Under the pieces are notes generated by a model. That model saw nothing but the letters and a program-made list of their open reading frames with translations. It did no database searches and was not told the DNA's origin. Source: Candidatus Tectimicrobiota bacterium (GTDB lineage: Bacteria > JACPUC01). From it: a stretch of 64,000 nucleotides of DNA. This document shows positions 42,176 through 54,501 of the stretch, piece after piece. Position 1 is the stretch's first letter; the number at the start of each line of letters is the position of its first letter. The DNA is taken from NCBI GenBank assembly GCA_016192455.1, contig JACPUC010000006.1, positions 62,001 through 126,000 of the forward strand. The letters are read 5' to 3'. The translations under genes and the position numbers were made by a program.

Positions 42176-43225
42176 CTACTTCTTCTTGAACGCGTCCCAG
42201 AACTTCACGAAACGGGCGTCCACCACCTCCTCGTACTTCAGCGGGCGCGAGATCAGCTTGTTGGTGGTGAGGAGGATGTTGTTGTTCTCCACGGCTTTCT
42301 TTGTGAGGTGCGGTGCGTAGCTGTGCAACTGCCGGCGGACGCTCTTGCGCAGCACCTCGGGGTTCGCATCGGGGAATTCCTTCTGCGCCACCTTCACCAC
42401 TTCCTCGAAATTCGCCGGATCAACCACGAAAGACTGTGCCCTCACCAACGTGCGCACCACCTTCTCGGCGGTGGCCAGGTTCTTCTCCAACCAGCTTACC
42501 CTCGCCTGGAGGCTCACGTAAGCGATCTCCTGGAAGATCTCCGGCCCCTCACCGGCCAAGATGTCAAACACGTAATCAGCCAGCTTCAGTGTATCAACCA
42601 GCATGGTGTTGAAGGGTTCGATGGCCATGGTTCCATCGATCTCACCTGCCTTCATGGCCGCGATGTGGGCCGGGAAGCCGAGGATCGGTTTGAGGATCGC
42701 ATCGCGGTCGGGATCGAGCTTCGCCGTCGTGAGCACGTAGCGGACCAGCATGTCGGCCAGACCGCCCCGCGCCAGGGTGGCGATGCGCAAGCCTTTCAGG
42801 TCATTGACCGTGGGCTTGCGGCCGAGCCGCTGCACGACGCTCTTCGACACCAGGATGCCGCCGTTGACCGGCCCCTGCACATTCATGAGCGCCCGCATCG
42901 GCTGGCCCTGGTCGATGACCTTGAACATGTTCTCGGTGGCCGCCGCCTGCATGTCGGTTGAGCCGCCAAGGATGGCGCGGGAGGCCTCCGCGCCGCCGCG
43001 GAAGTTGAAGATCTCCACGTCAAGCCCTGCCTCCTTGAACCAGCCGAGATTGTTCGCAACGTAGAGGGGGAGGCTGAAGAGGCTGCGCACGGAGCTGGCC
43101 AGCTTGAGTTTCTGGGCTTCAACCCCAGGGCTCCAGGAGAGAGAGAGAACGACGGTCATCACCAGGAGCAGAACCAGGCGGCTCTGCCGACGACGGATTG
43201 CGCGCGCACATGGATGCTCTCTCAT
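42176..43225 (-). CDS. ABC transporter substrate-binding protein, NitT/TauT type
   Basis: Signal peptide; LKLASSVRSLFSLPLYVANNLGWFKEAGLDVEIFNFRGGAEASRAILGGSTDMQAAATENMF. Confidence 0.9.
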   Translation of the reverse strand: MREHPCARAIRRRQSRLVLLLVMTVVLSLSWSPGVEAQKLKLASSVRSLFSLPLYVANNLGWFKEAGLDVEIFNFRGGAEASRAILGGSTDMQAAATENMFKVIDQGQPMRALMNVQGPVNGGILVSKSVVQRLGRKPTVNDLKGLRIATLARGGLADMLVRYVLTTAKLDPDRDAILKPILGFPAHIAAMKAGEIDGTMAIEPFNTMLVDTLKLADYVFDILAGEGPEIFQEIAYVSLQARVSWLEKNLATAEKVVRTLVRAQSFVVDPANFEEVVKVAQKEFPDANPEVLRKSVRRQLHSYAPHLTKKAVENNNILLTTNKLISRPLKYEEVVDARFVKFWDAFKKK

Positions 43226-43353
43226 GGGATTCCTCCTCCAAGGCTCGACGAGAGCCCGCATGGTTCCCACGTAGCGGAACAGTGTGGAGCAGCACACCAA
43301 CGCCCCCGTATGGCCGCGGCTTCAGCCGCCGGCGGCGCGACCGGCGCGCCGCC

Positions 43354-44187
43354 CTAAAGCTGGCCCACCTGCGGGGGGCGCCACTTCAGGAGCCGTTTTT
43401 CCAAGCGCAGCATCAGAGCATTGAGGGCCACGGCCAAGAGCATGAGGGCGAGGAGGGGGACGAGGATGCCCGTGGTGTTGAAGGCGCCGCTGGCCCGATC
43501 GATCAAGAAGCCGATGCCCTTGGTGCTGCCGAGGAACTCGCCGACGACCGCCCCGATGTAGGCGAAAGCGACGCTGACGCGCAGACCGGCGAAAATCCAG
43601 GGGACGCTGTGCGGCAGCGTGATCTTCACGAAGATGTCGCGCTGCCGGGCCCCCAGCATGCGCAACGCGTTCACCAGAACGGGATCGATGCTGCGCGTTC
43701 CCGCGTAGGTGTTCACCAGCATGATCACGGCCACGAGGGAGAAGGCCAGCATGATCTTCGACAGCAGCCCAATGCCCACCCAGATGATGAGCAACGGCGC
43801 CAGGGCGACCCGCGGCAGGCTGTTCAACGCCATGATGTAAGGTTCGAGGACCTCCGCCAGGAGCTCCCAGCGGGCGAACAGAAAGCCGCCGGCGATGCCA
43901 ACCGCGGCGCCGAGCACCAGCCCGGCCAGCGATTCCCCGAGGGTGATGCCGGTGTGCAGGGGCAGCGAGCCATCGGCCAACATGGCGACGAACCGGCGCA
44001 CGAGACTCACCGGGCTGCTCACCCAGAACTCGCTGAGCACCTCCGTGCTGACCAGCCCTTGCCAGCTAACGAGGCACGCCAGAAGGAAGGCCAGCCGCAG
44101 CCCGAGCAGGCGGAGGCCCCGCGGCGCCGGGGCGCGCGCCTTTCGCCTGGCGGTTGACCTGCCTGCGGTGTCAGGCGCGGCTGCCAT
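43354..44187 (-). CDS. ABC transporter permease (SsuC/TauC type)
   Basis: Multi-TM; SLAGLVLGAAVGIAGG..NSLPRVALAPLLIIWVGIGLLSKIMLAFSL..EFLGSTKGIGFLIDRASGAFNT. Confidence 0.92.
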   Translation of the reverse strand: MAAAPDTAGRSTARRKARAPAPRGLRLLGLRLAFLLACLVSWQGLVSTEVLSEFWVSSPVSLVRRFVAMLADGSLPLHTGITLGESLAGLVLGAAVGIAGGFLFARWELLAEVLEPYIMALNSLPRVALAPLLIIWVGIGLLSKIMLAFSLVAVIMLVNTYAGTRSIDPVLVNALRMLGARQRDIFVKITLPHSVPWIFAGLRVSVAFAYIGAVVGEFLGSTKGIGFLIDRASGAFNTTGILVPLLALMLLAVALNALMLRLEKRLLKWRPPQVGQL

Positions 44188-45043
44188 ACGGCCGTTCTCC
44201 CTGCATGGTGCGCAGCACTTCCTTGCGCAACTGTTCCCAGAGAAGCGACCGGTGGTGCTGGAAGGAGGGATGGGTGCGGGCTTCGGTCGCTGAGCGCGGT
44301 CGCGGCAACTCGATCTCCTGCTCGAGCATCAGCCGCGCCGGTCGCGAGCTCAAGAGCAGGACACGGTCGGCGAGGGAGACCGCCTCATCGAGATCGTGGG
44401 TGATGAAGATCACCGTCTTGCGGCTGCGTTCCCAGATGGTCAGGAGTTCATCTTCGAGGAAGAGCTTGGTCTGGCTGTCGAGACTGGCGAATGGCTCGTC
44501 CATCAGGAGGATGTCGGGGTCGCGGATCAAGGTGCGGGCCAGGGAGACGCGCTGGCGCATCCCTCCGGAGAGCTGGTGGGGGTAGTTCTCCTCGAAGCCG
44601 GAGAGGCCGAAGGTGTTCAGCAGCTCACGCGAGCGGGCGTGCCGCTCCTTCTTCTCCACGCCGGCCAGCTCCAGGCTGATCTCCACGTTGCTGAGCACCG
44701 TGCGCCACGGCAACAGGGCATCACACTGGAACATGTAGCCCACGCGCGGGTGAGGGCCGTCGACCTCCTGGCCCAGGACCCTTACCACCCCCTCACCCGG
44801 CCACAGCAAGCCGGCGATGACGTTGAGCAACGTACTTTTGCCGCAGCCGCTCGGCCCAATGACCGACAGGAACTCCCCCGCCGGACACCTCAAGGTGATG
44901 TCCGCAAGCACGGCGACCGGACTGCCGCCGTCGCGAGCAAACGCCATGGAGAGCCGCTCGCACTCGACGGCGGGCGCCTGGCCTGGAGATTGCGCCGCCT
45001 TCGTGGGCGTCCATGATTCATCTGCGGGGCGAGACGTCGCCAT
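44171..45043 (-). CDS. ABC transporter ATP-binding protein (SsuB/TauB type)
   Basis: VIGPSGCGKSTLLNVIAG; HQLSGGMRQRVSLARTLIRDPDILLMDEPFASLDSQ; THDLDEAVSLADRVLLLSSRP. Confidence 0.95.
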   Translation of the reverse strand: MATSRPADESWTPTKAAQSPGQAPAVECERLSMAFARDGGSPVAVLADITLRCPAGEFLSVIGPSGCGKSTLLNVIAGLLWPGEGVVRVLGQEVDGPHPRVGYMFQCDALLPWRTVLSNVEISLELAGVEKKERHARSRELLNTFGLSGFEENYPHQLSGGMRQRVSLARTLIRDPDILLMDEPFASLDSQTKLFLEDELLTIWERSRKTVIFITHDLDEAVSLADRVLLLSSRPARLMLEQEIELPRPRSATEARTHPSFQHHRSLLWEQLRKEVLRTMQGERPYGSRA

Positions 45044-45125
45044 CCCTTGAGACCTCATCTCCCTGAGAGCCCACGGAGCCCCACGGCTGGACCTCCTCGG
45101 CAGCGGCGCCGGCGCGTGCGGTACG

Positions 45126-46712
45126 CTACTCCACCCGCCGGCGCTGCTGCGCCAGCTTCTCGCCGGTCTTGAAATAGTCGCCACGCAGCGCCATCTCGGC
45201 CTCTTCCTCGAGCTCCTCGCTCCACTTCCCCAGGTTGTAGCCATGCCACGGCGACTTCAGCCGCAGCGGCGGCAGCCCCTCTCGCTCCCAGAGCTTCATG
45301 GCGTGCTCCATGAGGTCTTTCCTGGGAAGCGAGATGGGTGGGTAGGGCCACTTGCGCGTCGCATCAATCAGCAGCGCGGAGTTGCCGCTCGGAAACGGGA
45401 AGATGTCGGTCTCCCCCTGGGGTGACCCGGAGTGGTCGAGGAAGCCGGTTCTGCCCTGCACGACGAGCATATCCCGGTGCGGCTGCATGAAGTAGCACAG
45501 CGCCCAGTTCACCGCCTCGGGGTCGCGCGGGTCAACGGTCTCATCCACGGCGACGAAGATCTTGCCGATCGTCGGATCGAAGCCCACCGCCGTGTTCAGC
45601 GCTTGCATCGGCTGGCTGGGGTTGGTCTTCTTGAGCTGGATGACGATGTAGTGCCAAGCTCCGCCGGATTCATGGAAGGCCACATCCAGCACCCCGTCGA
45701 TGTTCGCGTGGTGCCTGAGGTGCTTGTAGAGCACCGGCTCATAGGCCATCTGCCGAATCTTGCTGCTCTCGCTCGGCGGGAACTGGCTGAGGATGGCGCC
45801 GTAGATGGCGTCGCGGCGATGGGTGATGCAGCTCACCTCGAAGTAGGGGTTGAACCGCCGCTCGCCGATGAAGCCGACGAACTCGCCGAAGGGGGCCTCC
45901 GGCTCGACGTACTCGGTGGTGATGTTTCCCTCGACGACGATCTCCGCCCAGGCCGGCACTTCGAGATCGACGGTCTTGCAGCGCACCAGCTCAACCGGCT
46001 CGCCGGCGAGCGCCCCGGCCACGCTCAATTCGTCGAGGCCGGGGAGCTTGGCCACCGCCGTGTACGAGAGGTGCGGCGGACAGCCGAGGATGAGGGCGGC
46101 CTGCAAGGGCTTGCCCTGCTGGCGACACTTCTGCCAGTGCAACCCCACGTCCTGGGTGGGGATGACGAAGATGCCGAGCCGGGTGGAGGATTTCAGGTGG
46201 CCCCGGTAGTTCCCCAGGTTGCGCAGGCCGGTTTCGGGATCGCGGGTGATCCAGTGGGACATCGTGGTGTAGGGCGCGCAGTCGAAGCCGGGGGTGGAGA
46301 TGGGGATGGGGATGCGGTCGAGCCCTTGCCCCTCCTTCAGAAGCTCATCCCCTTGCAGAACGACCTCGTGCACCGGCCCCTTCTCAACCAGGCGCGGAGG
46401 GATCGGATGGAGCTGCGCCTGCGTCCATTTCTCCAGCAACTGGCCGGCCTCGCACTGCATGCCAAGGCAGTAAATATCGCGCGATGCGGCAAGCGCGCCA
46501 ACCAGCACCGGCATGGCATAGCGGCGGCCGTTTGAATCCGTCACGTTTTCGAACAAGAAGGCCTTGCGTTCCTCCTCGGGGAGTCCGCGGAATTGCAGCC
46601 GCACCAGGGGCATCAACTCGGTATCCTTATTGATCTCGGAGCTGATTCTAATCAGCTTCCCGTGGCGCTCCAATTCCTCGACGTAGACATGCAGGTCTCG
46701 GTAGCCCGACAT
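45126..46712 (-). CDS. UbiD-family decarboxylase
   Basis: DLHVYVEELERHGKLIRISSEINKDTELMPLVRLQFRGLPEEERKAFLFENV...FGEFVGFIGERRFNPYFEVSCITHRRDAIYGAI. Confidence 0.93.
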   Translation of the reverse strand: MSGYRDLHVYVEELERHGKLIRISSEINKDTELMPLVRLQFRGLPEEERKAFLFENVTDSNGRRYAMPVLVGALAASRDIYCLGMQCEAGQLLEKWTQAQLHPIPPRLVEKGPVHEVVLQGDELLKEGQGLDRIPIPISTPGFDCAPYTTMSHWITRDPETGLRNLGNYRGHLKSSTRLGIFVIPTQDVGLHWQKCRQQGKPLQAALILGCPPHLSYTAVAKLPGLDELSVAGALAGEPVELVRCKTVDLEVPAWAEIVVEGNITTEYVEPEAPFGEFVGFIGERRFNPYFEVSCITHRRDAIYGAILSQFPPSESSKIRQMAYEPVLYKHLRHHANIDGVLDVAFHESGGAWHYIVIQLKKTNPSQPMQALNTAVGFDPTIGKIFVAVDETVDPRDPEAVNWALCYFMQPHRDMLVVQGRTGFLDHSGSPQGETDIFPFPSGNSALLIDATRKWPYPPISLPRKDLMEHAMKLWEREGLPPLRLKSPWHGYNLGKWSEELEEEAEMALRGDYFKTGEKLAQQRRRVE

Positions 46713-47483: not shown

Positions 47484-47693
47484 CTAGCCATGCCGCCGGG
47501 AGCGCTCGCGGGCGCCTTCGCGCTGGCGCCGATCTGCCGCCTGCACCCGTTCGTCGACCTCGAGCAGGTCGGGATGCTCGGCATAGTACCTTGCCATGAA
47601 CTCCACGCGCCGCTCCTCTGGCTCGCCATCCTCGTTCTGGGCCAGCAAACGCCGGACGCGCTCGCGAAGATGGTCATCGGAACTCATCGCCAT
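47484..47693 (-). CDS. Small hypothetical charged protein (69 aa)
   Basis: MAMSSDDHLRERVRRLLAQNEDGEPEERRVEFMARYYAEHPDLLEVDERV...; begins 12 nt after the cytochrome b gene ends, same strand. Confidence 0.45.
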   Translation of the reverse strand: MAMSSDDHLRERVRRLLAQNEDGEPEERRVEFMARYYAEHPDLLEVDERVQAADRRQREGARERSRRHG

Positions 47694-47705
47694 CGCTCCT
47701 CCACT

Positions 47706-48629
47706 TCACGCCACTGGTTGTCCGCTTTCCGGTTTGGGCAACCCGGGCCGACGATTGCCAGGCGGCTCGCGCTCCTCGATGCTTCCCTCGGCGCCGAAAA
47801 GCTCGCGATACCAAGCGGGATGCCGCTCCTGCACATAGGCGCGGCTGAGCGGCCGGCCGAACATGGAGCGGAGCAACCCCCAGTGCGACGGCAGGGCGAG
47901 GTAGCGGATGAGGTGCTCGAGGAGCTTGGCGCCGGCCAGGAAGAGGGTCGAGACGTGCAGGGCGCTGATGAAGAAGAGGACGGGTCCGGGCAACGGATTG
48001 TAGATGTAGCGAAACGCCTTCAGGGCGCCCGTGACGAGCGCCAGTGCGATGATGAAGGCCCAGATGGGAAACGACACCAGCCGCGAATAGGGAGAGTACT
48101 TGCCCGCTTCACGATCGCCGGGGCGATTGCGGCGGCGAACCTGAAGGAGGAGGCGAGCCAAATCGCCCCGCCGCCAGAGGATGCCGTAACGGCCGAGGGT
48201 GAGAGCGTGGGCCAGGTAGAGCGCCACGGCGAAGACCACCATGGAGGCGCCGACGAAGTGGAGCTGATAGACGCGATCCAAGGGGGCGCTCCGCCAGAGG
48301 AGGCGGTACTGGACGATGCCCGTCGCCATGGCGAGCATGATGCCGACCGCGTTCACCCAATGAGCTGCGATGACCAGCGGGGCGTGCCGCGCCACCTTGC
48401 CGTCGGTGGCCCTCTCCTGCCGCCCGCGGCGCGCCCGCCAGCCCGCCGCCAGTCCCAGACCGAGGCCGAGGCAGGCGGCGAACGGCAGCACCTTGAGGAA
48501 CCGCACTTGGTTCCTCAACAGAGCCCCGCGCGGCGCCCAGTCGTGGCGCTCGGCCAGAGCGGGGGCGGTCATGATGAAGAGAGCGCCGAGGCACGCGCCC
48601 GCCTGGATGAGCCGCAGGGTGCGAGGCAT
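47706..48629 (-). CDS. Cytochrome b-type quinone-interacting membrane subunit (FdhI/HyaC-like)
   Basis: HAPLVIAAHWVNAVGIMLAMATGIVQY...QLHFVGASMVVFAVALYLAHALTLG...FFISALHVSTLFLAGAKLLEHLIRY: TM helices with paired His. Confidence 0.8.
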   Translation of the reverse strand: MPRTLRLIQAGACLGALFIMTAPALAERHDWAPRGALLRNQVRFLKVLPFAACLGLGLGLAAGWRARRGRQERATDGKVARHAPLVIAAHWVNAVGIMLAMATGIVQYRLLWRSAPLDRVYQLHFVGASMVVFAVALYLAHALTLGRYGILWRRGDLARLLLQVRRRNRPGDREAGKYSPYSRLVSFPIWAFIIALALVTGALKAFRYIYNPLPGPVLFFISALHVSTLFLAGAKLLEHLIRYLALPSHWGLLRSMFGRPLSRAYVQERHPAWYRELFGAEGSIEEREPPGNRRPGLPKPESGQPVA

Positions 48630-48647
48630 GGGGAATCGCTTTCAAGC

Positions 48648-49340
48648 TCAGGCAATACTGTCGTAGACCTTCGTGGTGGCTCTCGTCACGTCCAGGCAGA
48701 GGCGGTCGGTCTTCAGGACGCCCTGCCGAATGCGGATGTTGATGGGACAGCGCTCGACGCAGATCGGCCCGCCCTCTCTGCCGCGGCACATGTCGCACTT
48801 TGTGAAGACTCCCTTCTGCTCGTCGAAGAAGATGCGCTTCCACGCCACCGGCTCCGCCGTCTCCGTCAGGATGCCGTCGATGGGGAACGGGCAGGCGGCC
48901 TCGCAGCGCCCGCAGGCCACACAGCGCGCCTCGTCAATGAAGCGCGCCCCGTTCGCCCCGTCAAGGCGCATGGCGTTGACCGGGCAGACGTAGACGCACT
49001 CGGGATGCGGGCACTGCTTGCACGGCTGCTGGAGAAATTGCCCACGACCAGGGTACTTGCGCTGAATCTCGGCATGGAGCGTCGTCGCCGAATGGTTGAG
49101 GATGCGGATGCGCGGCTTGTCGGAAAGGCCCTGTTCGCGGTGGTAGCGGCCGCACACCACCTCGCAAGTGAGGCAGCCGATACAGAGGGAGGGATCGGGC
49201 ATGATCGCTCCCTCCGAGAGGGGGAGGGCCTGCGGCTGCGTCCCGAGGTTCGCCAGGCCCAGGACCGCCGCTCCCGCAGCCACCGCCCCCACGGCGCCAA
49301 GCCGCAGGAAATCGCGCCGTGTCACCGCCGCCTCGGTCAT
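48648..49340 (-). CDS. Tat-targeted multi-[4Fe-4S] ferredoxin subunit (HybA/DmsB-like)
   Basis: MTEAAVTRRDFLRLGAVGAVAAGAAVLG Tat signal; CIGCLTCEVVC, CKQCPHPECVYVCP, CVACGRCEAACP, CDMC..CVERCP. Confidence 0.92.
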   Translation of the reverse strand: MTEAAVTRRDFLRLGAVGAVAAGAAVLGLANLGTQPQALPLSEGAIMPDPSLCIGCLTCEVVCGRYHREQGLSDKPRIRILNHSATTLHAEIQRKYPGRGQFLQQPCKQCPHPECVYVCPVNAMRLDGANGARFIDEARCVACGRCEAACPFPIDGILTETAEPVAWKRIFFDEQKGVFTKCDMCRGREGGPICVERCPINIRIRQGVLKTDRLCLDVTRATTKVYDSIA

Positions 49341-49467
49341 CGGTTCCTCGCCTCTTCCGCGGCCTCCTCGCCACCGCCTGCCGGCAGGAGGGAGGGGCGG
49401 GCGCCCGGCACCCACCCCTCGATGGCAAGCGCGAAATCCTCCGCCTCCGCCTCCGCCGTCCCCGGCC

Positions 49468-50442
49468 TCAGGCAACGGCCAGCAGCGCCTTTTCCACCAG
49501 GGAGCGCGTCAGGTCAACCTTGTAGCGGTTCATGGTCATCGGCCGCGCGCCGGCGGTGGCAAGCTGCGCGGCTTGCTGGCTCAGCTCGCGGGTGATCTTC
49601 TTGCCGGCCAGCGCGCGTTCGGCCCGCTCGACGCGCAGCGGCACAGGCGCCACCCCGCCCAGGGCCAGGCGGGCAGCTTGGCAGACGCCGTTTTTCGCGG
49701 TGCAGCGCACCGCCACGCTGGCCAAGGCGAAATCCCAGGAGCCGCGGATGCGCGTCTTCAGGAAGGTGCTGCGGGTGTTCGCCGGCGGCGTGGGCACCAC
49801 GATCTCGGTGATGAGTTCGGCCGGCTGCAGGATGTTCTCGCGCAGAACGTCCTGGCGCGGCCCGATAAAGAAGTCCTCGGCCTTGACGGTCTTCTCCTTC
49901 TGGGGACCGGCAATGGTGATGCGGGCATCGAGGGCGAGGAGGGCGACAGCGGTATCGGAGGGGTGGACCATGTAACACAGCTCGCCCTTCAGGATGGAGT
50001 GGTAGTAGCGGTTATCCCCCGTCACGGCGAAGCAGAAGTCGCCCCCTTTCTTGTAGCAGTGGAAGGCGCCACGGTAGTACCAGCAGCGCGGCCGCTGGCA
50101 GAGGTTGCCGCCGATGCTCCCCATGTTGCGGAGCTGCGGCGAGGCCACGGCGCCGGCCGCCTCGGCGAGCGCCGTGTAACGGCCGAGGACGGCCTCGTGC
50201 TCGGCGAGGTCGGCCAGGATCGTCATGGCGCCGATGTGCAGCCCGTCCTTCTCCTCGCGGATGTAGTGGATATCCTTGACGTCGCCGATGTTCACGACGA
50301 ACTCGGGCGTGTCGATGCGCTCCTTCATGAGCGTCGTGAGGTCGCCGCCCCCGGCGAAGATGCGGGCCTTCTTGCCGTGCTTGGCAAGGGCCCCCTTCAC
50401 CTCCTCGATGCTCTTCGCATTGATCCAGGTAAAGCTCTGCAC
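49468..50442 (-). CDS. Xanthine dehydrogenase family FAD-binding subunit with extra Cys-rich loop
   Basis: ARIFAGGGDLTTLMKERI; ASPQLRNMGSIGGNLCQRPRCWYYRGAFHCYKKGGDFCFAV. Confidence 0.9.
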   Translation of the reverse strand: MQSFTWINAKSIEEVKGALAKHGKKARIFAGGGDLTTLMKERIDTPEFVVNIGDVKDIHYIREEKDGLHIGAMTILADLAEHEAVLGRYTALAEAAGAVASPQLRNMGSIGGNLCQRPRCWYYRGAFHCYKKGGDFCFAVTGDNRYYHSILKGELCYMVHPSDTAVALLALDARITIAGPQKEKTVKAEDFFIGPRQDVLRENILQPAELITEIVVPTPPANTRSTFLKTRIRGSWDFALASVAVRCTAKNGVCQAARLALGGVAPVPLRVERAERALAGKKITRELSQQAAQLATAGARPMTMNRYKVDLTRSLVEKALLAVA

Positions 50443-50461
50443 GTTCCCTCACCTCCCTTCG

Positions 50462-52798
50462 CTACACGGCCGCCCGCAGGGCCTGGAGGACCTTGCTCGG
50501 CGTGATCGGGTAGTCGCGGATGCGCACCCCGGTGGCGTTGTACAGGGCATTGGCGATGGCGCCGCCGGCCCCCGTCACGGGCGGCTCCCCGAGCCCCTTC
50601 GCGTTGATGTTGTTGGAGAGATCATGGGTCTCGATGGGCACCACGGTCACTTGGTCGGGAATGTCCAAGGCGGTCGGACAACCGTACTCGTGGTAATTCG
50701 CATTGAGTTGCACGCCGGTCTCGGCGTCGAGAATGCGCTCCTCGTAGAGCGCCATGCCGAGCCCCTGGATGAAGCCGCCCTGCACCTGGCTCTCGTAAGT
50801 GAGGGTGTTGATCGGGCGGCCGGAATCGTGGGCCAGGACGGCCCGCAGGACCTTGACGTTGCCGCTCGCCGTATCGACCTCGACCTCGACCATCTGCGCC
50901 CCGAAGATATCAACCTTGCGGCCGGCGGGGTTCGGCAGACGCTTCCCCTTGCCGATCAGCAGGTGCCGCCCCTGCATCCAACCCAGCTTGCCGGTCACCT
51001 CCTTGAAGTTTGCTTTCTTCTCCGGCTGGCTCTTCGCGGCGAAGACCCCGCCGGCATACTGCACGTCGGCGACGGGAACCTTGAGGGTTTCCGCGGCCAG
51101 GGCGATGAGCTGCTGCTTCGCGTCGGCGGCCGCCATGCGCACTGCCGGGCCGCCTTGGAACGTCGTCCGGCTGCCGTAGCTCGAGTTGATGGTGTACGGC
51201 GTTCCGGCCGAATCGCCGTAGGCCACGCGCACCATCTCGAGCGGCACGTCGATCTCCTCGGCGGCGATCTGGGCGAAGATCACCTGCGCCCCGACGCCGA
51301 GATTGGCGATGCCGACATTGACCTCGACCGTGCCGTCCGGATAGATGGTCACCAAGGCCTGGCTCGGTTCGCCCTCGAAACCGTGCCAGTGGACGGCGCT
51401 CATGCCGATGCCGCGGCGCTTGGTGCCCTCGACGGTCGACTTCGGCTTGCGCCGCTGCCAGCCGAAGGTCTTGGCGGCGGCCTCGTAGCTCTCGCGCAGG
51501 CCGTTGCTGAAGTACGGCTCGTTCTTCGGTTGGTAGACGGCCGTGAAGTTCTTCAGGCGCAGCGCGATGGGATCAAGGTCGAGCTTCTCGGCCGCCTCGT
51601 CCATGAACTGCTCCAGGGCGAAGAGGTTCTCGGTGTTGCCCGGACCGCGGCAAGCGCCGGGGGACGAAAGGTTCGTGTGCACGGGGATGTTCGTCGTGCG
51701 CAGGTTCGGGCACTTGTAGAGCTCGTTCGTCGGCGACCCCACGGCTGGTGCGGCCCAGTACATCCCTCGGTCGTTCCAGGCGCCGCCGCGCCCGATGACC
51801 TCGTAGTCGATGGCCGTTAGGGCGCCGTCCTTCTTGAAGCCGGCCTTGATCTTTTGGATGGTGAGCGGTCGGTGCGAGGAGAGGAGGAAGGTCTCGAAGC
51901 GATCCAGGAAGAGGCGGATGGGGCTCCCCGTGGCGCGGCTGAGCATCGCCGCGATGACGTGGTACTCCTTCACGCCGTTCTTGGAGCCGAAGCCGCCGCC
52001 AAGGTGCTCGTTGAGCACCCGCACCTTGCTGATGGGCAGACGCAACTTCAGCGCCAGGAGGTCGCGCGTCAGGTGCACCCCTTGGGTGCTGTCCCAGACC
52101 GTGAGCATGCCATTCTGCCAGTGGGCGACGCAGCCGTGCATCTCCAGGCAGGCATGGTGTTGCTCGGAGGTCGTGTAGGTCTCTTCTAGGACAACGTCGG
52201 CCGCCGCGAATCCTTTCGCCAGGTCGCCGCGCTCGTAGACCTTCGGCTTGCCCTCCCAGATGTTGCCGTACGGCTGCAGTTTCGGCGCGCCGGGCCGCAT
52301 CGCCTCCCGCACGTCGATGACGTGCGGCAGCACCTCGTACTTCACCTTGATGAGCCGCACGGCGTCGTCGGCAATCTGCTCAGTATCGGCCGCCACCGCC
52401 GCGATGTCGTCGCCGATCAGGCGCACGTGATCCTTGAACACCGCCCGCTCGCGGTCCCAGGGCTGTTTGCCGGCGTTCTTGTGGCTGAGGACGGCGCGCA
52501 CGCCGGGCAGCTTCTCCGCGGCGCTCGTTTCGAGGTCGAGGAGTTTCGCATTGGCATGAGAGGAGCGCAGAACGCGGGCGTGGAGCATGCCGGGAAGCTG
52601 GACGTCGTAGGCATACTTCGCCTCTCCCGTCACCTTCTCCCGGGCGACCTTCTTCGGGAAGCGCTTGCCGACGTACTTCAGCGTCTCATTCTTCCCCCAG
52701 GGCGCCAGCATGGTTCCCCCTTCCCCCTGGAGCGCCGCCGACTCGTCCTCGACGGTGTAGGTCTTTCCCTCGACGATAATCTGCTTCATCGCAGCCAT
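50462..52798 (-). CDS. Xanthine dehydrogenase family molybdenum-cofactor-binding subunit
   Basis: VTGEAKYAYDVQLPGMLHARVLRSSHANAKLL; LGGGFGSKNG; GACRGPGNTENLFALEQFMDEAAEKLDLDPIALRLKN; KGLGEPPVTGAGGAIANAL. Confidence 0.95.
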   Translation of the reverse strand: MAAMKQIIVEGKTYTVEDESAALQGEGGTMLAPWGKNETLKYVGKRFPKKVAREKVTGEAKYAYDVQLPGMLHARVLRSSHANAKLLDLETSAAEKLPGVRAVLSHKNAGKQPWDRERAVFKDHVRLIGDDIAAVAADTEQIADDAVRLIKVKYEVLPHVIDVREAMRPGAPKLQPYGNIWEGKPKVYERGDLAKGFAAADVVLEETYTTSEQHHACLEMHGCVAHWQNGMLTVWDSTQGVHLTRDLLALKLRLPISKVRVLNEHLGGGFGSKNGVKEYHVIAAMLSRATGSPIRLFLDRFETFLLSSHRPLTIQKIKAGFKKDGALTAIDYEVIGRGGAWNDRGMYWAAPAVGSPTNELYKCPNLRTTNIPVHTNLSSPGACRGPGNTENLFALEQFMDEAAEKLDLDPIALRLKNFTAVYQPKNEPYFSNGLRESYEAAAKTFGWQRRKPKSTVEGTKRRGIGMSAVHWHGFEGEPSQALVTIYPDGTVEVNVGIANLGVGAQVIFAQIAAEEIDVPLEMVRVAYGDSAGTPYTINSSYGSRTTFQGGPAVRMAAADAKQQLIALAAETLKVPVADVQYAGGVFAAKSQPEKKANFKEVTGKLGWMQGRHLLIGKGKRLPNPAGRKVDIFGAQMVEVEVDTASGNVKVLRAVLAHDSGRPINTLTYESQVQGGFIQGLGMALYEERILDAETGVQLNANYHEYGCPTALDIPDQVTVVPIETHDLSNNINAKGLGEPPVTGAGGAIANALYNATGVRIRDYPITPSKVLQALRAAV

Positions 52799-52814
52799 TC
52801 CGCATCACCTCCTC

Positions 52815-53435
52815 TCAGAGTTTTTTCGCGGCCGCCAAGACGGCCTCGAAGATGTGGTGGTAGGCGCCGCAGCGGCAGATGTTCCCCGACAGCGCCTGCT
52901 TCACTTCCGCCAGGGTGGGGCTCTTCTTCTTGTCGAGGAAGGCCTTGCCGGCCAGAATCTGCCCCGGTGTGCAGAAGCCGCATTGGTAGGCGTCGTACTC
53001 GATGAACGCCTCCTGCAGCGGATGGAGCCGCCCGTTCTTGGCCAACCCCTCGATGGTCTCGATCTCCCTGCCCTGCACGTTGACGGCGAGCAGCGAACAG
53101 CCGTACATGGCGCGCCCATCGACGATCACCGTGCACGCCCCGCACTCGGCCCGGTCGCAGCCGATCTTCGTGCCGGTGAGATTGAGCTCGGTGCGCAGGA
53201 CGTCGGCCAGGGTGCGGCGCGCTTCGATGGTGAGGGCGTAGCGCCGGCCATTGATCTTCAGCTCCACCGGCACGTAGGAGAGCCCCTCCACCAGCGGCGG
53301 CACCGCGGCCTTTCCCGCCCGGGGCTTGACGAGGCCGGTGGCGAGAGCGGTCGAGGTGGCCGCCCCCACTCCCATCCCCTTCAGGAAGCTCCGGCGCGAC
53401 ATCCGAAGTCGTTCATCTCCCTTCGTGGTTGCCAT
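52815..53435 (-). CDS. Xanthine dehydrogenase family [2Fe-2S] subunit with N-terminal Tat signal
   Basis: RLRMSRRSFLKGMGVGAATSTALATGLV; CDRAECGACTVIVDGRAMYGC; QCGFCTPGQI; GNICRCGAYHHI; GGAGG RBS. Confidence 0.94.
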   Translation of the reverse strand: MATTKGDERLRMSRRSFLKGMGVGAATSTALATGLVKPRAGKAAVPPLVEGLSYVPVELKINGRRYALTIEARRTLADVLRTELNLTGTKIGCDRAECGACTVIVDGRAMYGCSLLAVNVQGREIETIEGLAKNGRLHPLQEAFIEYDAYQCGFCTPGQILAGKAFLDKKKSPTLAEVKQALSGNICRCGAYHHIFEAVLAAAKKL

Positions 53436-53526: not shown

Positions 53527-54501
53527 TTACCTCCTCCCTCCCACCTGTGGGCCGCCCGCCTCGCCGAGCGGTGCAAGGTAGATGTTGCTCTCGCCCAGCA
53601 ACACCGCATCGAAGACGATACTCCGCCCGTCGGGGCTGATGTCGAGGCCGCCGGCAAAGCTCACCGACGGGGTGGCGGGGCGGCGGTCGGAGCCGTCGGG
53701 GCGCATGGACCACAAGCCGTGGGTGCCCTCCCCAGAGCCGTGCGGCAGGTAATAGATGCGACCGTCGCGGCGATTCCAGCGCGGGAAGTGCTCGGTCTTC
53801 GGTCCGTTGGTGAGGGGGCGGGCGTCGCTGCCGTCGCGGCGCATCAGCCAGATGTCGTAGTTCCCCGCCGCGAACGAGTCGTAGGCGATAAACTGGCCAT
53901 CCGGACTCCAGGCGATCTGCCGGCCGAACTTCTTGCCGAAGCTGAGCAGCGTCGGCTTCGTTTCCTTCCCTCCATCAACCGCCGTCACCAGCAACTCGAG
54001 TTGTCCGGCATTGTTTTCCGCATAAGCCAGCGAGGCTCCATCGGGGCTCCAGCCGAGGCTGATGTGCCAGTTGGAGCCATGGGTGATCTGGCGCGGGTTG
54101 CCCCCCTCGCGGTCCATCACCCACACCTGGTAGGCGCCGGTCCGATCCGAATCGAAGGCGATGCGATGGCCGTCGGGGGAGAAGGAGGGGTGGGAATCAT
54201 GCCACGGGCCGCTCGTCAGCGGACGCGCGTCGCTGCCGTCGGCGCGCATGATCCAGATGTGGAAATGGCCGCCGCGATTGGAATCGAAGACAATGTGCGC
54301 GCCGTCGGGGCTCCAGACGGGGTGACGGTCGGTGAAGGGGAGGAAGGTAAGCTGCTTTGCCCCCGCGGGGAGCTCATGCGCCACAGGGGCGGACACCGCC
54401 GCGCACCAGGCAAGGAGCAGGACCATCCCGCCCAAGAGGCGGCGGGGTAGGCACCCACCCCCACGCTCCTGCGGTGACGCGGCGCGCCGTCGCATCTCCA
54501 C
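53527..54501 (-). CDS. TolB/PD40-type beta-propeller secreted protein
   Basis: Repeats [36 protein letters not shown] / [36 protein letters not shown]. Confidence 0.88.

Follow-up and report, generated by a model that had tools for sequence, protein, structure and literature searches.

Introduction

To our knowledge, the feeding of quinone through a ferredoxin and cytochrome b module has so far been described, among molybdoenzymes, in the DMSO-reductase family only. Exported molybdenum hydroxylases of the XO family are known as well, and the PaoABC trimer is carried out of the cytoplasm by the signal of its PaoA subunit (PMC4273604), although the terminal acceptor of this enzyme has been reported as unidentified (PMC3958847). 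In acetic acid bacteria, the MCD-dependent membrane aldehyde dehydrogenase is an XO-family enzyme that has been described in a review as reducing ubiquinone from the periplasmic side (PMC9171043).

Here we analyse a locus from Candidatus Tectimicrobiota, lying in a stretch of 64,000 nucleotides of contig JACPUC010000006.1 that is referred to throughout as the window. We consider it probable (roughly 0.75) that this locus encodes a respiratory molybdenum hydroxylase which, judged from its sequence, would sit at the outside of the cytoplasmic membrane and would feed quinone via a polyferredoxin and a cytochrome b. A preliminary description of the locus had reached the same interpretation, and it is supported by the present analysis, with electron transfer to quinone as a prediction. 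No description of such a triad combined with a ferredoxin and cytochrome b was found in the literature searched, which covered few subscription papers.

Results

Gene set and layout

The window comes from a genome of 4.46 Mb (G000) whose phylum has no second member among the genomes compared. The genes of interest follow one another on the minus strand in this order:

53527..54501, minus strand: secreted PD40/TolB-like beta-propeller, 324 aa (PF07676), with orthologues at ferredoxin loci
52815..53435, minus strand: small subunit with 2x[2Fe-2S] and Tat signal SRRSFLK, ATG at 53435 (PF00111, PF01799; PF10518 just below cut-off)
50462..52798, minus strand: Moco subunit, 778 aa (MoCoBD_1/2 and Ald_Xan_dh_C; PF02738, PF20256, PF01315)
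49468..50442, minus strand: FAD subunit with four-Cys insert (FAD_binding_5, PF00941; CO_deh_flav_C, PF03450)
48648..49340, minus strand: polyferredoxin with Tat signal TRRDFLR and 16 Cys (Fer4 dicluster domains)
47706..48629, minus strand: FdnI-like dihaem cytochrome b (Ni_hydr_CYTB, PF01292)
47484..47693, minus strand: small charged ORF, 69 aa, ATG at 47693 preceded by GGAGGAG; a plausible gene

The successive gaps are 91, 16, 19, 127, 18 and 12 nt, GC3 lies between 0.85 and 0.91 in the six conserved genes, and a purine-rich sequence resembling a ribosome-binding site precedes each of the small, Moco and FAD genes. All six of the same-strand ORFs that had been claimed between 47484 and 53435 were recovered; Pfam assignment is clear for five of them, and the subunit types proposed for these five agree with their Pfam domains and Tat motifs. 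The spacing of mostly 12-19 nt holds for four of the gaps (16, 19, 18 and 12 nt) but not for the 127 nt between the FAD and ferredoxin genes. The original gene list is otherwise sound for its five conserved members, but omitted the upstream propeller gene and included a sixth ORF that is not conserved. Further downstream on the minus strand (42176-46712) are genes for a UbiD-family decarboxylase, an ABC ATPase, a permease and a NitT/TauT-like binding protein, which may import an aromatic acid and decarboxylate it.

The catalytic triad

A Tat motif is present in the small subunit and absent from the Moco and FAD subunits, and TatC is encoded in the genome. The small subunit is 45% identical to E. 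coli PaoA and the FAD subunit 33% identical to PaoB, the best PDB matches of the latter being 5y6q_B and 5g5g_B (PaoB). An insert in the FAD subunit (C120-C129-C137-C156) is conserved in the alignment and is kept by the FAD subunits of Tat-type triads; it is a predicted [4Fe-4S] site, as in PaoB and HcrB, and would provide a natural electron exit towards the ferredoxin.

The catalytic glutamate of the Moco subunit, Glu738, stands in a GEP motif whose Glu is kept in all rows compared. After GGGFGxK, at the alignment position that we take to be that of Glu802 in bovine xanthine oxidase, the window protein has an Asn and the other ferredoxin-linked rows likewise lack Glu. The window enzyme thus does not have the residue expected of a xanthine dehydrogenase, and a purine substrate is disfavoured. 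Two ferredoxin-linked Moco subunits elsewhere (L184:3421-5985 and L191:12342-14816) have an altered GGGFG cofactor-binding motif with the GEP glutamate intact, and a cupredoxin-like protein (PF00127) is encoded immediately upstream of the Tat-type triad at L191:16117-16587. Scores against the curated NCBIfam families remain well short of what is needed for both PaoA (191 of 322 bits) and PaoC (426 of 1180), and no subunit of the triad reaches an equivalog cut-off that would name the substrate.

The best PDB match of the Moco subunit is 1rm6_A, the alpha subunit of 4-hydroxybenzoyl-CoA reductase (HBCR), with PaoC also among the top matches. Since the FAD subunit of HBCR also carries an extra cluster, one might suppose that electrons run in reverse, with quinol reducing the ferredoxin and the enzyme acting as a reductase in a dehydroxylation like that of HBCR. 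We regard this as very improbable, given that export speaks against CoA-ester substrates, that quinol is a weak donor for reductions of this type, and that none of the three subunits comes near its cut-off for the HBCR families (488 of 994, 179 of 405 and 168 of 258).

The preliminary description had also suggested looking for a chaperone of the PaoD/XdhC type. There is none in or beside the operon, but a single XdhC_C match occurs on another contig of the genome (G000:C28). The same genome holds some 32 XO-family Moco loci in its 4.46 Mb, yet just this one XdhC_C match, and a polyferredoxin of the present family was found at 0 of the 20 XO paralogue loci examined there.

The polyferredoxin

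The 16 cluster cysteines of the ferredoxin are invariant in 17 of 17 aligned rows, except that the last can be judged in 16, all of which have it, because one row ends earlier; they are the putative ligands of four [4Fe-4S] clusters. A Tat motif is found in the ferredoxins of the family. The window protein is 230 residues long and lacks a C-terminal hydrophobic helix that could anchor it in the membrane, and it falls below every NCBIfam cut-off, the best matches being YdhX (76 bits, cut-off 213) and HybA (67.5 bits, cut-off 263). Its earlier designation as HybA-like is apt at the level of the HybA/YdhX superfamily, but by score and by the missing anchor it is not a member of HybA itself. An AlphaFold2 model built from three rows reached a pLDDT of 30.

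The family comprises 18 loci in 14 genomes, namely the window genome, Chloroflexota and one Bacillota MAG (L114), the last with two copies. Its limits are sharp, in that a three-row profile run against 35 genomes with Moco relatives gave matches at or below 4e-85 or none at 1e-30. In the contig search for the Moco subunit a single-sequence query matched nothing, and an alignment was used. The ferredoxin is present in 11 of 400 Chloroflexota genomes and, in a profile search of 250 genomes from the phylum of the Bacillota MAG, in 0 of the other 249. A single-sequence query at 1e-25 against 386 genomes, one per family, recovered the window's own genome and 0 of the 385 other representatives.

Cytochrome b

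Four histidines of the cytochrome b (His90, His124, His225 and His239) are invariant in 13 of 13 rows and align with the haem ligands of FdnI at positions 18, 57, 155 and 169, as does a C-terminal HPxWYRE motif. FdnI (1kqf_C) is also ranked first by Foldseek, with an E-value (0.012) that is weak because the model is only of moderate quality (pLDDT 66). The score against the NCBIfam formate dehydrogenase gamma family is 30 of 116 bits, and by sequence the protein appears as a relative of that family and not as a member of it. The proposed FdhI-like cytochrome b is, as such, better termed FdnI-like, and by analogy it is a predicted dihaem quinone reductase. At several Chloroflexota loci a protein of 70-76 aa with two predicted membrane helices is encoded 3' of the cytochrome b (L190:7-225, L191:8065-8277, L184:10808-11029 and L188:8344-8574); the L184 copy has no Pfam match, and the protein is a possible extra subunit.

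Linkage and history of the module

XO-family genes adjoin the ferredoxin at 17 of the 18 loci, which span at least three phyla, and at the sole exception (L186) no more than 116 bases separate the ferredoxin gene from the end of the contig. A cytochrome b adjoins the ferredoxin at 16 loci, the other two lying at contig ends, and in the 14 genomes every copy of its family belongs to such a locus save one (G511:C16), which is accompanied by a propeller. The Tat motif was found in all 10 of the Tat-type small subunits recovered at ferredoxin loci. The preliminary description had named two observations that would tell against it, namely a failure of the two modules to co-occur in other genomes and an association of the ferredoxin and cytochrome b with a different kind of catalytic subunit; the linkage just given answers the first, and no case of the second was seen at the loci examined. 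It could be argued that the triad is an ordinary PaoABC-type system for aldehyde detoxification which uses soluble acceptors and has the ferredoxin and cytochrome b as chance neighbours, and triads without the module are indeed common. The expected chance of the observed linkage is, however, about 4e-13, a generous estimate based on the unusually dense set of XO loci in the window genome, and with linkage at nearly every locus this explanation is strongly disfavoured, to the point of being scarcely credible.

The arrangement of the genes varies. At L168 the order is small subunit, FAD subunit, ferredoxin, cytochrome b and Moco subunit, and at several Chloroflexota loci the module is convergent to the Tat-type triad or stands beside a second triad without an export signal, so that the catalytic partner is less certain there. 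Such a second triad lies upstream of the module at L167:10272-16057, L187, L189 and L196. In its FAD subunit the four cysteines follow another pattern, and at L167 it is accompanied by a MobA-like nucleotidyltransferase, a phosphoribosyltransferase and an IclR regulator.

On the Moco tree the ferredoxin-linked subunits are found in at least three separate positions; a single clade is rejected (p-AU 1.9e-37), three changes are also counted on a 97-row tree, and a minimum of three gains or losses of the module is therefore required. The closest relative of the window's Moco subunit is its sister L083 (55% identity), which belongs to a triad with no adjoining ferredoxin or cytochrome b, in a genome where a three-row profile search found no ferredoxin of this family; enzymes of this type therefore do not require the module. 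On these sequences the module appears to have been mixed with several Moco lineages and not inherited with them as one unit. Such a history, the rejection of one clade, the closest relative that lacks the module and the loci with two triads beside one module would all suit a general periplasmic electron hub, in which ferredoxin, cytochrome b and propeller serve several dehydrogenases, exported or encoded nearby, and the triad is one loosely coupled client. We nonetheless judge the hub to be unlikely, since an XO-family triad is present wherever the locus is not truncated by the end of its contig, in most cases of Tat type with a four-Cys FAD subunit, and the genes form compact single operons in the window and at L109, L190, L193 and L195.

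The propeller and the sixth ORF

When the 14 genomes with the ferredoxin were searched with the window's propeller, the best match in 9 other genomes was encoded at the locus of the ferredoxin (E 6e-43 to 2e-34), all remaining propellers of the searched genomes having E-values of 9e-24 or worse. In G511 the best match adjoins a cytochrome b of this family, and at L109 a PD40 propeller gene stands between ferredoxin and cytochrome b; none was found at L193-L195, nor at either locus of the Bacillota MAG. The propeller belongs to the conserved gene set. In the Chloroflexota proteins the C-terminus carries a hydrophobic helix and a basic tail, whereas the window protein has an N-terminal signal only. 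Its role is probably that of a scaffold or of a docking protein at the periplasmic side.

The small charged protein listed as the last member of the operon is outside the conserved set. It matched no family in a Pfam search and has no homologue at the other ferredoxin loci, and as it is not conserved with the gene set we reject it as a subunit or chaperone.

Discussion

The gene content suggests how a respiratory molybdenum hydroxylase of this kind may operate. The trimer of 2Fe-2S, Moco and FAD subunits would be assembled in the cytoplasm and then leave it as a unit, directed by the Tat signal on the small subunit, with the polyferredoxin exported by its own. We infer that these proteins form a complex with the cytochrome b in which electrons flow towards quinone. 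The Moco centre would hydroxylate a substrate that is presumably an aldehyde or a (hetero)aromatic compound, and electrons would pass from Mo through two [2Fe-2S] clusters to the FAD subunit, with its FAD and its [4Fe-4S] cluster, and onward through the four [4Fe-4S] clusters of the polyferredoxin and two haems b to quinone. Should quinone bind towards the cytoplasm, as it does in FdnI, that analogy would suggest an electrogenic reaction.

A broader proposal, which we put forward tentatively and hold to be slightly short of an even chance, is that the locus represents a hitherto undescribed, modular class of respiratory complex. A unit of polyferredoxin, dihaem cytochrome b and propeller, dedicated to molybdenum hydroxylases of the XO family, would have been joined to different exported triads on at least three occasions, and would reduce quinone electrogenically in the manner of formate dehydrogenase-N.

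For one exported XO-family lineage, spread over several phyla, a likely answer to the question of the acceptor can thus be read from the operon. If the respiratory reading is correct, the XO family joins those molybdoenzymes whose electrons reach quinone by way of a ferredoxin and cytochrome b module, and uncultured Chloroflexota and their relatives could use aldehydes or heteroaromatics as energy sources with no need to import them. The beta-propeller family likewise gains a plausible setting.

Comparison with known systems places the locus between two of them. E. coli PaoABC (YagTSR) is alike in having a Tat-bearing small subunit, a Moco subunit and an FAD subunit with a four-Cys insert in one operon, but has no ferredoxin or cytochrome b gene, and its paoD chaperone gene has no counterpart adjoining the window operon. 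Formate dehydrogenase-N shares, in FdnHI, the four-cluster ferredoxin and a cytochrome b with the four haem-ligand histidines and HPxWYRE; its catalytic subunit, however, is of the DMSO-reductase family, the window ferredoxin differs from FdnH in its own Tat signal and its want of a C-terminal membrane helix, and the window cytochrome b has about two more N-terminal helices than FdnI. The YdhX and HybA ferredoxins are the nearest curated families to the window ferredoxin, which scores below their cut-offs, and they work with other catalytic partners. HBCR (1rm6) resembles the window enzyme in its Moco subunit and in the extra [4Fe-4S] of its FAD subunit, but it is cytoplasmic and reductive. 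The aldehyde dehydrogenase of acetic acid bacteria is a periplasmic XO-family enzyme feeding quinone, as is predicted for the window system, but according to a figure legend of the review cited above it uses a c-type cytochrome in place of FAD/[4Fe-4S] ferredoxin and cytochrome b (PMC9171043). By sequence, the window system appears to combine a catalysis like that of PaoABC with an electron exit like that of FdnHI, and by curated cut-offs it is a member of neither.
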